From NCBI GenBank assembly GCA_027484825.1, contig JAIXSE010000018.1, forward strand, positions 248,001-312,000: DNA of 64,000 bases, in the 5' to 3' direction. Made by a program: the position numbers and the translations under genes. Numbering within the stretch: position 1 is the first letter of the stretch; every line of letters begins with the position of its first letter. The stretch is from Rubrivivax sp. Lineage in GTDB: Bacteria > Pseudomonadota > Gammaproteobacteria > Burkholderiales > Burkholderiaceae_C. Of the stretch, positions 54,632 through 60,021 are shown piece after piece. The notes below the pieces were generated by a model. It was not told the origin of the DNA. It saw only the letters and a program-made list of their open reading frames with translations, and searched no databases.

Positions 54632-55543
54632 TCAATCCCCCGGGCTGCTGTCCCACCGCCTGGCGAGCGACCCCGCCAGGCTGACCTGCTGCCGCCACGC
54701 CAGATCCAGGTTGCCCTTCGGGGCCGCCAGGCGTCCGCCAAAGAAGGCCGAGGGGCACATGCCATAGCAGCGCTGCCAGACCTTGGCCAGATGCGCGGAG
54801 TCCGCAAAGCCGCACAGCTGCGCGATATCGGTCAAGGGCCGACTGCTGCCGAGAAACATCGCGGCGCGCCGGATCTTCTCGGCCAGCGCGTATTGCCGCA
54901 CCGTCAGCCCCAGCGCCGACACAAACAGCTGCGACGCACGCCGCGCGGGCATGCCCACCCGGCGACTCAGCACCCCCAGATCGGACGCAGGATCCATCCG
55001 CACCGCCGCCATCATCTGCAGCACCGGCGGCGAGACCGGCACTTCCGGCCCGATGCTGTCCGCCACGTCCGCCACATGCAGGCAGACGGCCGCGCGCAGC
55101 TGCGATCCGGTCAGGCGCTGGTCCGCAAAGCCCTGCACGCAACCCAGCAGGCCGGCGAAACGCACGCTGTCCAGCTCGGTGACGGTGGCCTCCGGCCCCT
55201 GCCGGCTGAAGGTGTTGTAGCGCGGGTGGGACGGCTCCAGATCGATCAGCGCCACCGGCTCGCGTCCGGTGTCCACCGCCCGTTTGAGGAAGGGGCGTAT
55301 GGCCAGCAGCCGCCCGCGCCATCGCTGGTCGCCCACCGTGATGGTGAGCGGCTCCGGGCCGATGGCGCAGGCCAGGGTCACGGAATGCCGACACACATCC
55401 GCCTGGATGTTGGGGCCGGCATAGATGAAGCTGTCTCCCAGCAGCCCCAGGCGGGGCGTCGCCAATGTCTTGTGCATCGTGGCGGCATGCTCCGGCACGC
55501 CGCCGGGCCCGTCAAGGCGGAACCCTGTTGCCCGCGGTGTCAT
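54632..55543 (-). CDS. AraC-type regulator, probable polyesterase activator
   Basis: A 303-residue regulator with a C-terminal AraC DNA-binding domain (VGMPARRASQLFVSALGLTVRQY, LTDIAQLCGFADSAHLAKVWQRCYG) and an N-terminal sensing domain of about 200 residues. It lies 32 bases after the second polyesterase gene on the same strand and is probably cotranscribed. The repeated element before both polyesterase genes is its most likely target. An in-frame ATG at 55477 is a possible alternative start. Confidence 0.85.
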   Translation of the reverse strand: MTPRATGFRLDGPGGVPEHAATMHKTLATPRLGLLGDSFIYAGPNIQADVCRHSVTLACAIGPEPLTITVGDQRWRGRLLAIRPFLKRAVDTGREPVALIDLEPSHPRYNTFSRQGPEATVTELDSVRFAGLLGCVQGFADQRLTGSQLRAAVCLHVADVADSIGPEVPVSPPVLQMMAAVRMDPASDLGVLSRRVGMPARRASQLFVSALGLTVRQYALAEKIRRAAMFLGSSRPLTDIAQLCGFADSAHLAKVWQRCYGMCPSAFFGGRLAAPKGNLDLAWRQQVSLAGSLARRWDSSPGD

Positions 55544-55575
55544 CAAGATGCCACCGCGGGCCGGGCCAATGCGCC

Positions 55576-56445
55576 TCAGTAGGGGCAGTTCTGGCTGTAA
55601 CGATCAAACACCAGGGCGGTGGCGTACGCGTTGTGCTCCGCGCCGCACAGGAAGCTCGAATACCGCGTGTCCCCGTCCACAAAGCGCTTCATCCAGGTCA
55701 CGCCATAGCGCCCGATCGGGGTGTTGGTGGTGTTGGGCGTGAAGTGGGTGGCGAGGTTCAGTTCGGCATAGGCCTTTCGGACCGAGCTGGGCAAGCTCGC
55801 ATAGAAGGGCCTCGCATGCACTGCTGCCGGGGCAACGGTGTCACCGTCGGCGCCCACGATCAGCGTCGGCACCTGCACATCGCTGAAGTTGGTGGTGAGG
55901 TTCCAGGGCGTCAGTGGCAGGGCCGCCTTGAGGCTGGGATTGTTCTCCGCCGCGATCAAGGCACCACCGCCGCCCATCGAATGCCCGGCCACCGCGCGCC
56001 GGTTCGGATCGACCCGGCTGCGCACCGTGCTGCTCGCACTGTTCACCACATGATTGAGCGCCGCCATCAGCTGGGTGGCGCGGCTGGCGGGCTGGTCCAG
56101 CGTGGTGAGTGTGTTGATGGTGACCACGACGAATCCATGCGTGGCCAGCCGTCGGCCCAGCCAGGCGATGCTGGACTCGGTGGCGGTGAAGCCGGGGCTC
56201 ATCGCCACCACGCCATATTGGCCGGCTGTTGTGGGGTAGTAGATGGTGCCGCCGCCAAACCCCACCGGCGCCAGCACCGACGTGCTGCTCACGGCAAAGG
56301 GGCCGGCGGTCGCATTGAGCCCGGCAGAGGTGGGGTCCGGGCCGGTCTGCTGGGCGCTGGCGGGAAGGGCCAAGCCGATGAGGGCCGCAGCAGCCGCCAG
56401 GGCGGCGACGCGCGTCTGACGACGCAAGCTCGAGGTGAGGGTCAT
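55576..56445 (-). CDS. Extracellular polyester hydrolase (PETase/cutinase family), copy 1
   Basis: A 289-residue secreted alpha/beta hydrolase of the family that includes PBSA depolymerase and IsPETase. Signal peptide cleavage is near ASA-QQ. The triad is Ser156 (GHSMGGGG), Asp202 (GADGDTVAP) and His234 (LATHFTPN). The Trp in TPWNLTTNF and the Met in GHSMG match the aromatic-polyester binding site. A C-terminal Cys pair (267 and 287) can form a disulfide; the second disulfide of IsPETase is absent, and GHSMG rather than GWSMG is used. AGGGAGA precedes the ATG at 56445. Substrate is likely an aliphatic or aliphatic-aromatic polyester; PET activity is not shown by sequence. Confidence 0.9.
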
Positions 56446-56534
56446 GATGTCTCCCTGTGATGTCACGTTGGACGATGCCGCGTGTCATCGGTGCAGGCGG
56501 GAAACGCCTGACCCCGTTGCGCTGCGGCCCGGCC

Positions 56535-56572
56535 AGTCTAGGAATCCCGTCCCGGGATGCCTTGTATTGGGA
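56535..56572 (-). promoter_or_regulatory. Polyesterase promoter/operator element, copy 1
   Basis: In plus-strand coordinates AGTCTAGGAA-N12-ATGCCTTGTATTGGGA. The identical pair with the same spacing lies before the other polyesterase gene (58387-58424). Read on the minus strand it gives a TAGACT -10 with CCCAATACAAGGCAT overlapping the -35 position, as expected for an AraC-type activator site. It is 90 bases before the ATG. Confidence 0.65.
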
Positions 56573-56650
56573 GACCCCCGTGCCCCCTAGCTCCGATCGG
56601 GACAAACCCCCCGTGCCTGCGGAGGCCGGCACGGGAGGCCTCTGTCGCCG

Positions 56651-57385
56651 TCAGGGCTGGGCGCCGTTGCGCTCAAGGTCGTAACGGGCCTGCGCCCGCA
56701 CGGCCTTGTCCGACATGGACAGGTTGGGGGAGGGGTCCTCCCGCATCAGCTCCAGCAGACGCCGGGACACGGCATCGTCCTGCGCAAACATCTGCCGCGC
56801 GTTGTCCGTGCCGAGGTAGGTGGCGCGCAGAGACTGCAAGGCGTTGAGCTGGGCCAGCCCTTCCTCGGGCACCAGTGGTGCCTGGTCCGGCGGAAAGGCT
56901 TGACGCTGCGCCTCCTGGTAACTGGCGAACTGGCTCAGCAGTTGCCGCGCCTGCGCAGCCGCTGCGGCGGGCAGCTCGGACAGTTGCGCCTCCAGGGCGG
57001 CGGTCTGTGCAGCGCCTTGATGCAGCGCCAGCAGCGACTCGAGCTCCAGTCTCAGGGTCTGGTCGGTCACGAGCTGCCCCTGCGCGTTGACCCGGAAGGC
57101 CCGTGGTCGTGGGCCACCCGCGCCCCCGGCCCCATCGGGGTCTCCTGCACCGGTGGCGGCCATCGCTGCCAGCTCGGTCGCGGAGAGCCCCGCCGTGCCC
57201 TGGGCGCCTGCGGTGGCGCCAGGCGTGCCGGGCGTCTGTGCCCACGGGAATTGTTGATTGGCAACGACGTGCTCCGGGGAGGTCGCATCCGCCATCCAGG
57301 CATACAGCCCGGCGGCGCCCAGCCCTGCGATCAGGGCCAGGCCAAAGATGCGCCAGCCGGGTCCCCGCTTGTGCGGATTCGGCAT
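56651..57385 (-). CDS. Divergent lipase-chaperone (foldase)-like membrane protein
   Basis: A 244-residue protein, shorter than the usual 340-residue Lif foldases. A membrane anchor lies at 11-31 (WRIFGLALIAGLGAAGLYAWM), then a Gly/Ala-rich linker. The helical body matches the foldase pattern: FRVNAQGQLVTDQTLRLELE at 97-116 and LNALQSLRATYLGTDNARQMF at 180-200. The foldase hallmark R-x-x-F-D-Y-F-L-S is degenerate here (RLELESLLA at 112-120). It starts 12 bases after polyesterase copy 2 and precedes copy 1, so it may help both enzymes fold in the periplasm before secretion. The role is inferred. Confidence 0.65.
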   Translation of the reverse strand: MPNPHKRGPGWRIFGLALIAGLGAAGLYAWMADATSPEHVVANQQFPWAQTPGTPGATAGAQGTAGLSATELAAMAATGAGDPDGAGGAGGPRPRAFRVNAQGQLVTDQTLRLELESLLALHQGAAQTAALEAQLSELPAAAAAQARQLLSQFASYQEAQRQAFPPDQAPLVPEEGLAQLNALQSLRATYLGTDNARQMFAQDDAVSRRLLELMREDPSPNLSMSDKAVRAQARYDLERNGAQP

Positions 57386-57397
57386 GGCGGACCTCCG

Positions 57398-58270
57398 TCA
57401 GTACGGGCAGTTCTGGCTATAGCGGTCGAACACGGTGGCCGTGGCATAGGCCTGATGTTCCGCACCGCACAGGAAGGTGGAGTAGCGGGTGTCGCCGTCG
57501 ACGAAGCGCTTCATCCAGGTCACGCCGTAGCGTCCGATGGGCGTGTTCACCCCGCTGGTCGGCGTGGAGTGGGTGGCCATGTTCAGCTCCCCATAGGCCT
57601 TGCGCACGGTGCTGGGCAGGCTGGCGTAGAAGGGCCGTGCATGCGAGGCCACCGGCGCCACCGCATCACCGTCAGCACCCACGATCAGCGTGGGCACCTG
57701 CACGCCGCTGAAGTTGGTGTTCAGGTTCCACGGGGTCAGCGGAAGAATGGCCTTGAGGCTGGGGTTGTTCTGCGCGGCGATCAGGGATCCGCCGCCGCCC
57801 ATCGAGTGCCCGCCCACCGCACGGCGAGCGGGGTCCACGCGGCTGCGCACGGTGCTGTTCGCGTTGTTGGCCACGTAGTTCAGCGCGGCGATCAGTTGCG
57901 TCGCCCGGCTGGCCGGTTGGTCCAGCGTGCTGTTGGTGTTGATGGTGACCACCACGAACCCGTGGGTGGCGATCCGGCGCCCCAGCCAGGCGACGCTGCT
58001 TTGGGTGGCGGTGAACCCCGGGCTCAGGGCCACGACGCCATACTGACCGGCGGTGGTGGGGTAGTAGATGGTGCCGCCACCAAAGCCGACCGGCGAGGTC
58101 ACCGTCGACGTGCTGACCGCAAACGGGCCGGCGGTGGCATTGAGGCTGGCGGAGGTGGGGTCGGGGCCGGTCTGCTGGGCAAAGCTGCTGCCCGCCGACA
58201 GTGCCAGCGCGGCAGAGGCCGCGAGCGCGCAGGCGCGCGCATGGCGACGCCAAAGGGTCGTGAAGGTCAT
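57398..58270 (-). CDS. Extracellular polyester hydrolase (PETase/cutinase family), copy 2
   Basis: A 290-residue close paralogue of copy 1. The signal peptide ends SSFA-QQ. The triad is Ser156, Asp202 and His234, and the C-terminal Cys pair is 268 and 288. Differences cluster in loops near the active site (THSTPTSGVN against [17 protein letters not shown] against NTLTTLDQ), which suggests a changed substrate preference. The ribosome binding site AGGGAGACAAC is almost the same as in copy 1. It is the first gene of the polyesterase-chaperone pair. Confidence 0.9.
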   Translation of the reverse strand: MTFTTLWRRHARACALAASAALALSAGSSFAQQTGPDPTSASLNATAGPFAVSTSTVTSPVGFGGGTIYYPTTAGQYGVVALSPGFTATQSSVAWLGRRIATHGFVVVTINTNSTLDQPASRATQLIAALNYVANNANSTVRSRVDPARRAVGGHSMGGGGSLIAAQNNPSLKAILPLTPWNLNTNFSGVQVPTLIVGADGDAVAPVASHARPFYASLPSTVRKAYGELNMATHSTPTSGVNTPIGRYGVTWMKRFVDGDTRYSTFLCGAEHQAYATATVFDRYSQNCPY

Positions 58271-58578
58271 GTTGTCTCCCTGTTTCGTGACATTGGCTGC
58301 CACCGCGTCCCGTCTGCACAAGGGTCTTGCAAGGGGAAGCCGGTCCCACGGTGCAAGCGGAGCCGGGCGCGCACGGCGGCCGGATGAGTCTAGGAACCGT
58401 TCGCCGGAATGCCTTGTATTGGGATGACCTGACCCCCCTAGATTCACATGCGGGGAAACCCACCCGGCCAACAGCGTCATCCGGCGCGTCACCGATGCGC
58501 CGTGCGGCGGCGCTGTAGAGTGGGGTCATCTTCGTTACAAACCGGGTGGCCTGCTTGTGGCCATCCGCTGGACCGACC
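58271..58578. other. Intergenic region between polyesterase copy 2 and the aldehyde dehydrogenase
   Basis: This 308-base gap contains the polyesterase promoter element annotated at 58387-58424 and must hold the divergent promoter of the dehydrogenase. No credible gene is seen. Confidence 0.5.
58387..58424 (-). promoter_or_regulatory. Polyesterase promoter/operator element, copy 2
   Basis: The same AGTCTAGGAA-N12-ATGCCTTGTATTGGGA pair as at 56535-56572, with identical spacing although the 12 bases between differ. A CCCCCTAG follows 14-15 bases further out in both. It is 117 bases before the ATG at 58270. Confidence 0.65.
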
Positions 58579-60021
58579 ATGAGTGCAAGTTACCCCGACA
58601 CCCAGCTGCTGATCGCCAATGAATGGGTGGACGCCAGCAGCGGCCGCAAGATCGACGTGCGCAATCCGGCCACCGGCCAGGTGATCGGCACCGTGGCCCA
58701 TGCAGGCAAGGACGACCTGGACCGTGCGCTGACCGCCGCCCGCAAGGGCTTCGAGGCCTGGCGTGACGTGCCAGCGCACGAACGTGCGGCCACCATGCGC
58801 CGCGCCGCGGCCCTGCTGCGTGAGCGTGCGCCGGAGATCGCCCGGCTGCTCACGCAGGAGCAGGGCAAGCCGCTGGCGGAAGCCAAGGTGGAAGTGCTGG
58901 CAGGGGCCGACATCATCGAATGGTTCGCCGATGAAGGTCGGCGTGTGTATGGCCGCATCGTGCCGTCTCGCAACCTGGCGGCGCAGCAGCTGGTGATCAA
59001 GGAACCGGTGGGCCCGGTGGCCGCGTTCACGCCGTGGAATTTCCCGGTCAACCAGATCGTGCGCAAGCTGGGTGCGGCACTGGCCACCGGCTGCTCCTTC
59101 CTGGTGAAGGCGCCGGAAGAAACGCCGGCCTCGCCAGCGGCGCTGCTCAAGACCTTCGTCGACGCCGGCGTGCCGGCCGGCACGGTCGGTCTGGTGTTTG
59201 GCGACCCGGCCGAAATCTCCAGCTACCTCATTCCGCATCCGATCATCCGCAAGGTGACCTTCACCGGCTCGACCCCGGTGGGCAAGCAGTTGGCCTCGCT
59301 GGCCGGCGCCCACATGAAGCGGGTGACGATGGAGCTTGGCGGCCATGCCCCGGTCATCGTGGCGGAGGACGCCGATGTGGCGGTGGCGGTGAAGGCAGCC
59401 GGCGGCGCGAAGTTCCGCAATGCAGGGCAGGTGTGCATTTCGCCCACCCGGTTCCTGGTGCACAACAGCATCAAGGCGGCGTTCACCGAAGCGCTGGTGG
59501 CCCATGCCCAGGGGCTGAAGCTGGGCGACGGCCTAGCCGAAGGTACCACCCTGGGCCCGCTGGCCAATGAGCGGCGCGTGGCCGCCATGACCAAGATCGT
59601 GGCCGATGCGCGCCAGCGCGGCGCCCGCATTGCCGCCGGCGGTGAGCGGGTGGGGGAGTCCGGCAACTTCTTTGCGCCGACCGTGCTGGCCGATGTGCCG
59701 CTGGATGCGGCCGTGTTCAACGACGAACCCTTCGGCCCGGTGGCCGCCATCCGCGGCTTCGACACCCTGGAAGAGGCCATCGCCGAAGCCAACCGTCTGC
59801 CCTTCGGTCTGGCCGGTTATGCCTTCACCCGTTCCATCAAGAACGCGCATCTGCTGTCGCAGCGGGTGGAAGTGGGCATGCTGTGGATCAACCAGCCGGC
59901 CACGCCGTCGGCCGAGATGCCGTTTGGCGGGGTCAAGGATTCCGGCTACGGCTCCGAAGGCGGACCGGAAGCGCTGGAGGCTTATCTCAACACCAAGGCG
60001 GTGTCGATTCTGGGCGTCTGA
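58579..60021 (+). CDS. NAD(P)-dependent aldehyde dehydrogenase (succinate-semialdehyde dehydrogenase-like)
   Basis: A 480-residue aldehyde dehydrogenase: [18 protein letters not shown], catalytic Glu252 (MELGGHAP) and Cys286 (RNAGQVCIS), and [17 protein letters not shown] near the C-terminus, the pattern of the GabD/SSADH group. It would oxidise an aldehyde to its acid; the exact substrate cannot be told. Its location next to polyester hydrolases could fit oxidation of diol-derived aldehydes such as those from butanediol, but this is inference. The start [10 protein letters not shown] at 58579 is the family norm. Confidence 0.88.

Follow-up and report, generated by a model that had tools for sequence, protein, structure and literature searches.

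A Lif-like gene without MD2 beside PETase-family hydrolase genes in Roseateles and other proteobacteria

Lipase-specific foldases (Lif) have been grouped with CpaB as membrane-bound type II chaperones in the available text of Harding et al. 2016 (PMC4713064). In a true Lif, the tyrosine of the FDY motif is required for activation, which is abolished by its loss, and the isolated MD1 binds weakly, as reported in the accessible part of PMC7046727. Stable client contacts are ascribed to MD2 and the extended helical domain (EHD) of LipH in the accessible part of PMC13381987, according to which MD1 contacts the C-terminal helix of the lipase only transiently. We analysed a stretch of 64 kb of DNA (the window) in which, as noticed previously in a sequence-only reading, two genes for PETase-family hydrolases flank a gene resembling a lipase chaperone. 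As shown in Table 1, all three were indeed found at that place and on the minus strand.

The trio and its two hydrolases

Table 1. Coordinates of the trio and of neighbouring features in the window
Feature	Position	Strand	Basis
AraC-type regulator gene, after PETase-B	54632-55546	(-)	
PETase-B, predicted secreted PETase-family hydrolase, 289 aa	55576..56445	(-)	Pfam PETase, likeness to PETase-A
Upstream block of PETase-B, matching that of PETase-A	56529..56593	(-)	counterpart upstream of PETase-A
Lif-like protein without MD2, 244 aa	56651..57385	(-)	Pfam, NCBIfam, profiles, hydropathy
Gap from PETase-A to Lif-like gene, 12 nt, GGAGG ribosome-binding site	57386..57397	(-)	sequence reading
PETase-A, predicted secreted PETase-family hydrolase with signal peptide, 290 aa	57398..58270	(-)	Pfam PETase, sequence reading
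Upstream block of PETase-A, CCCAATACAAGGCAT...TTCCTAGACT	58381..58445	(-)	counterpart upstream of PETase-B
Succinate-semialdehyde-dehydrogenase-like gene, divergent from PETase-A	58546-60021	(+)	

Both hydrolases matched the Pfam PETase model (PF12740; 360.4 bits for PETase-A and 366.5 for PETase-B, cut-off 28, E about 1e-108), and scored 364.5 and 352 bits with the NCBIfam BHET hydrolase model, under its cut-off of 520. The nearest solved chains to PETase-A in a PDB search were PET hydrolases and cutinases. A signal peptide and a C-terminal pair of cysteines could be read in both sequences, as could a candidate triad formed by Ser (GHSMGG), Asp (GADGD) and His (ATH), residues that we assign on the assumption that general knowledge of PETases applies. 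This agrees with the earlier view that both triads are intact. The same reading had proposed that the paralogues differ mostly in their active-site loops, and this did not hold. PETase-A and PETase-B were identical at 236 of 289 aligned residues. Of the columns in which they differ, 22 belong to the signal peptide and N-terminus (positions 1-60) and 7 to a stretch of 20 positions surrounding the catalytic His; the remainder are scattered. The residue preceding the nucleophile is His in both paralogues, whereas it is Trp in IsPETase (GWSMGG). Directly after the catalytic His, PETase-A has Ser whereas PETase-B has Phe, at a site that presumably shapes the pocket of IsPETase.

Because the blocks upstream of PETase-A and PETase-B match, the duplication that gave rise to the two genes seems to have included the promoter region. 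A 10-base core of this block was present near a PETase gene, with at most one mismatch, in 7 of 12 loci scanned. Only 3 of the 11 PETase-bearing Roseateles genomes contained a second PETase, so that the trio of the window looks like a duplication on top of an older pair of PETase and Lif-like gene. The closest named relatives of the Lif-like gene were found in R. terrae CECT 7247 (90%) and R. depolymerans DSM 11813 (86%), which belong to the same genus as the window genome, a Roseateles, as indicated by the genome search. The same trio is present in R. depolymerans DSM 11813, and there it is also flanked by the same AraC-type regulator and succinate-semialdehyde-dehydrogenase-like genes.

The Lif-like protein and its missing domain

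The middle protein scored 27.2 bits with Pfam Lipase_chap (PF03280; cut-off 25.7), over model positions 1-84 of 192 only, and 39.9 bits with the NCBIfam lipase secretion chaperone model, the cut-off of which is 285. All 11 Roseateles members matched the Lipase_chap family at E values of up to 0.01, the R. depolymerans copy scoring slightly below the cut-off (24.6 bits) in the genome search. Searching the PDB with the single sequence of the window protein yielded chance matches only, and with an 11-row profile MD1 was found at E=0.26, behind two unrelated chains. A profile of 18 rows retrieved the Lif chain 9g8u_B with an E value of 1.3e-10 (chain residues 23-179 of 302) and the P. aeruginosa MD1 structures 6gsf and 5ovm with E values of 1.8e-4 and 5.3e-4. 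Profile-profile comparison with six full-length proteins gave 99.3%. These profile matches bear out the Lif-like character that had been attributed to the middle gene, and indicate that its product shares ancestry with lipase-specific foldases along MD1 and roughly half of the helical arm.

The domain plan comprises a membrane helix (residues 13-31 approximately), a variable linker, MD1 from about residue 97 and part of the EHD. The hydropathy of the window protein reached 1.79 at residues 13-31 and nowhere exceeded 0.74 after residue 60. An N-terminal hydrophobic segment with a mean hydropathy of at least 1.6 was present in 31 of 33 PETase-linked Lif-like proteins, the values for the other two being 1.40 and 1.56. 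An AlphaFold model, computed from the window protein and two close relatives (three rows), was helical, with a mean pLDDT of 46.6 and a pTM of 0.25; it was too poor to be used for a fold search.

At the position of the RxxFDY motif the window protein reads RLELES, in agreement with the previous description of the motif as degenerate. FDY was found in none of 34 rows lacking MD2 and in 8 of 10 canonical rows. It was also absent from four further full-length Lif-like rows (from G614 and G743), and its loss is therefore not unique to the short form.

The absence of MD2, a point that the sequence-only reading does not mention, was apparent from the alignment of the window protein to a full-length profile, which stopped at position 214 of 337; two full-length proteins outside the profile model (L140 and L142) aligned up to positions 332 and 335. 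No MD2 was detected downstream of the short Lif-like genes in any of 26 loci, with as much as 900 nt scanned if the locus was long enough (less in L147 and L121). Three full-length controls, all of them rows of the model, were detected in the same search. The C-terminal end was common to all 11 Roseateles proteins. A frameshift, an assembly error or a relic as the source of the missing MD2 was disfavoured by this shared end, by the dN/dS values (below) and by the downstream search. A tree of Lif proteins was compatible with a single origin of the MD2-less form, at a deciding branch with a support of 0 where long branches meet. Since the middle protein lacks three features of lipase-specific foldases (FDY, MD2 and a family I lipase as partner), we do not count it among them but class it as a variant that derives from Lif and has a new family of partners.

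Recurrence of the pairing in other genomes

The Lif-like gene was found in 11 of 16 Roseateles genomes, and the same 11 contained a PETase (E <1e-100). In each of these 11 loci, the Lif-like gene started 12-23 nt past the PETase stop. The other five genomes had neither a match to the window Lif-like protein nor a PETase that passed the cut-off; weak matches to the PETase model, below the cut-off, were seen in three Roseateles genomes without the Lif-like gene (G400, G405 and G409). One genome of this genus without a strong PETase (G407) encodes a different Lif, of 306 aa, after a lipase-like gene (L146:3307-5134 (+)); its alignment to the Pfam model leaves out the central part. In 39 of 55 Roseateles pairs, and with dS often near saturation, dN/dS amounted to 0.03-0.34 for the MD1-EHD part, 0.11-0.83 for the linker and 0.04-0.26 for the PETases. 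Both genes are thus under purifying selection in this genus. The distances of Lif core and PETase were correlated (r=0.88, 55 pairs), but this value is uncorrected for species descent and carries no weight here.

In a sample of 399 genomes of the family, a PETase (E <1e-30) was present in 12, each of which had an MD2-less Lif-like gene beside one or more of its PETases. This neighbour was downstream and on the same strand in G000, G413, G404, G695, G641, G766, G562 and G473, and head-to-head with the PETase in G464, G614, G743 and G750. These last four pairs came from reading the neighbourhoods of the PETase genes: the A1 genome search, in which at most six candidates per genome were scored, did not recover the Lifs linked to PETase in G464 and G750, and its matches in G614 and G743 were other, full-length copies only. 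The PETase of G464 was identical over 290 of 290 residues to PDB chain 6qgc, named poly(ethylene terephthalate) hydrolase, which we take to be IsPETase; this makes Ideonella sakaiensis the most likely identity of G464.

At the level of the class, 2 of 203 genomes contained a PETase, namely the window genome and G938. In the order of the latter, PETase was present in 6 of 109 genomes, all from one distant gammaproteobacterial genus, and a Lif-like gene lay downstream of it in all six. At the level of the order, G364 and G080 had matched weakly, but neither match was reproduced when they were searched again. Altogether we counted 39 PETase genes in 26 genomes (14 in Roseateles, 19 in other genomes of the family and 6 in the genus of G938), and for 38 of them an MD2-less Lif-like gene adjoins either the PETase gene itself or another PETase gene to which it is joined in tandem. 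The sole exception (G562:C1:3070051, locus L151) occurred in a genome with two other pairs. A Lif-like neighbour is thus the rule in the proteobacterial PETase loci examined. The search in other genomes, which had been suggested as a check, thereby showed a link much wider than the trio had led the sequence-only reading to see; it also weakens the premise that enzymes of this family are chaperone-independent, as far as these loci are concerned.

On a plasmid of Piscinibacter gummiphilus (RefSeq), a gene annotated as 'lipase secretion chaperone' adjoins one annotated as 'poly(ethylene terephthalate) hydrolase', and a second 'lipase secretion chaperone' gene has no PETase directly beside it. The name is therefore already in use in databases for such genes. 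A near-identical block made up of PETase, Lif-like gene, dihydroorotase gene and regulator was observed in L147, L149, L152 and L154. That it is shared by the presumed Ideonella, G614 and the Piscinibacter plasmid, which bears IS1071, suggests a recent transfer. Behind the Lif-like gene of G938 lies another small gene, whose product likewise has a helix at the N-terminus (L155:2084-2803 (-); Lipase_chap 14.9 bits, below the cut-off), and related frames were seen in L159 and L161.

Short Lif-like genes were also found beside other enzymes. G458 and G567, the two genomes examined of another genus, each have a PHB-depolymerase-type esterase gene directly followed by an MD2-less Lif-like gene (L127:4293-5977 (-) and L128:3464-5109 (+)). 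These esterases scored 100.4 and 105.2 bits with Pfam Esterase_PHB, and that of G458 264.7 bits with NCBIfam NF050058 (cut-off 150). Both genomes have a full-length Lif elsewhere; with G766, this makes three genomes in which full-length Lifs occur in the same genome as, or beside, short ones, and the short form is therefore not the leftover of a lone Lif. An order-level search of 300 genomes with A2 gave nine further genomes; among the eight examined (G188 was left out), seven had full-length Lifs and the eighth a short Lif-like protein beside GH43. In L138:3147-5018 (+), a GH43 glycosyl hydrolase gene is followed after 6 nt by a short protein with weak likeness to Lif (17.3 bits in Pfam and 37.2 in NCBIfam). 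In L125:3272-8364 (-) and L126:4336-10426 (-), Lif-like proteins of full length have LDS where FDY would be expected, and their genes adjoin those of secreted proteins of 286-294 aa. The two neighbours that were searched, both from L125, had no family match in Pfam or NCBIfam; the secreted neighbours are possible further partner enzymes of Lifs.

Proposed role and comparison with known systems

The association between PETase and Lif-like genes is strong. Its recurrence beside nearly every related enzyme gene examined, apparently that of IsPETase included, suggests an overlooked helper protein for PETases. The product of the middle gene is probably a periplasmic chaperone or escort, anchored in the membrane, dedicated to hydrolases of the PETase family and derived from Lif in a reduced form. 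The proposal builds on the homology, the absence of MD2 and of FDY, the recurrent adjacency and the purifying selection in Roseateles; the steps of the mechanism that go past homology, gene order and selection are ones that we infer. After reaching the periplasm by the Sec route, the PETase would be met by a Lif fold of which the membrane helix, the linker, MD1 and a portion of the helical arm are left. This short Lif would hold part of the enzyme (the C-terminal part, if it behaves like MD1 of a true Lif), limit its misfolding or aggregation and pass it on for type II secretion, of which GspE scored over the cut-off in the window genome. With MD2 and FDY missing, its contact with the client would be expected to persist, but to be looser than that of a true Lif and to lack the classical activation step. 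That the helix, MD1 and half of the EHD have been kept while MD2 and FDY were lost leads us to read the protein as an escort, which would aid yield, folding and secretion of the PETase, and not as an obligate activator.

The finding of both operon and head-to-head orders speaks for this reading. IsPETase can be obtained in active form from E. coli in the absence of the short Lif, which is thus not strictly needed for this enzyme. Such activity, together with the low solubility of IsPETase that is named as a hindrance in the available text of PMC13072736, agrees with an escort. Against a chaperone speak the loss of FDY and MD2, the best-known working elements of Lif, the PETase of L151 that has no such neighbour and the one Lif-like gene of the Piscinibacter plasmid that has no adjacent PETase.

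Retention of the membrane anchor and of the client-contacting MD1, with loss of the activation motif and of MD2, would also fit a periplasmic inhibitor or holdase, which would keep the PETase inactive or unfolded until export and so protect the envelope, without a role in folding. We regard this as unlikely, as no sequence feature indicates blocking of the active site and true Lifs are folding factors. A secretion adaptor, which would dock the folded PETase to the type II machinery without acting as a chaperone, appears quite improbable: the homology is to a folding factor, and we know of no adaptor role for Lif. In its favour, GspE is present in the window genome, and secretion depends on membrane-bound type II chaperones such as CpaB, according to the available text of PMC4713064. 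The near-identical blocks in Ideonella and Piscinibacter, one of them on a plasmid with IS1071, could mean that the genes are merely carried along jointly on mobile blocks and do not cooperate; this is very unlikely, since the pairing is kept in two gene orders, in several genera and in a distant order, and both genes are under purifying selection in Roseateles. Finally, a decaying Lif that has lost its partner lipase, to which the weak similarity to true Lifs and the loss of motif and domain might point, is hardly credible in view of the C-terminal end shared by 11 of 11 Roseateles proteins, the low dN/dS, the occurrence across distant groups and the full-length Lifs that coexist with the short form in G766, G458 and G567.

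A broader proposal can also be put forward, though only tentatively. Proteobacterial PETases as a class, IsPETase included, may have evolved with a dedicated minimal membrane foldase devoid of MD2 and FDY, the absence of which would explain part of their poor soluble yield in foreign hosts. As MD2-less Lifs also follow PHA-depolymerase-like esterases in another genus, they might form a wider family of escorts for polyester hydrolases. IsPETase and its kin have been heavily engineered and are usually produced without a partner protein. Should a dedicated chaperone adjoin the gene, co-expression would offer an easy way to influence yield, secretion and activity; we found no report of co-expression of a PETase with a neighbouring chaperone in the literature searched. 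The short Lif also raises the question of how a steric chaperone could work without MD2, the site of stable client contacts in LipH (PMC13381987, accessible part), and lacking the tyrosine on which activation depends (PMC7046727, accessible part).

None of the matches listed in our literature search, which left subscription journals mostly outside, linked a PETase with a lipase chaperone, and nothing was found in the literature searched on R. depolymerans with a chaperone and an esterase. For PETase with foldase, the sole match was a paper on a surface-display plasmid, judged from the part available. The same tandem PETase-type genes presumably correspond to Est-H and Est-L in R. depolymerans TB-87, reportedly the subject of work by Ahmad et al. 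in 2019.

Compared with known systems, the window protein resembles lipase-specific foldases (Lif, LipB, LipH; PF03280) in its N-terminal membrane helix, variable linker, MD1 and first part of the EHD, and in the position of its gene beside that of a secreted ester hydrolase. It differs from them in having neither MD2 nor FDY, and its partner is a PETase-family enzyme rather than a family I lipase. With the type II chaperones of the Lif/CpaB class it shares a single N-terminal membrane helix and a gene beside that of a secreted enzyme; unlike it, CpaB is described with an SRPBCC-type domain and serves a protease (PMC4713064, available text). The closest arrangement is that of G464 (L147) and Piscinibacter gummiphilus (L154), where a PETase likewise has an MD2-less Lif-like neighbour. 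However, the two genes are divergent there, with a gap of 216 nt, instead of forming an operon as in the window, and the Lif-like protein is closer to full-length Lif (Pfam 59.9 bits).
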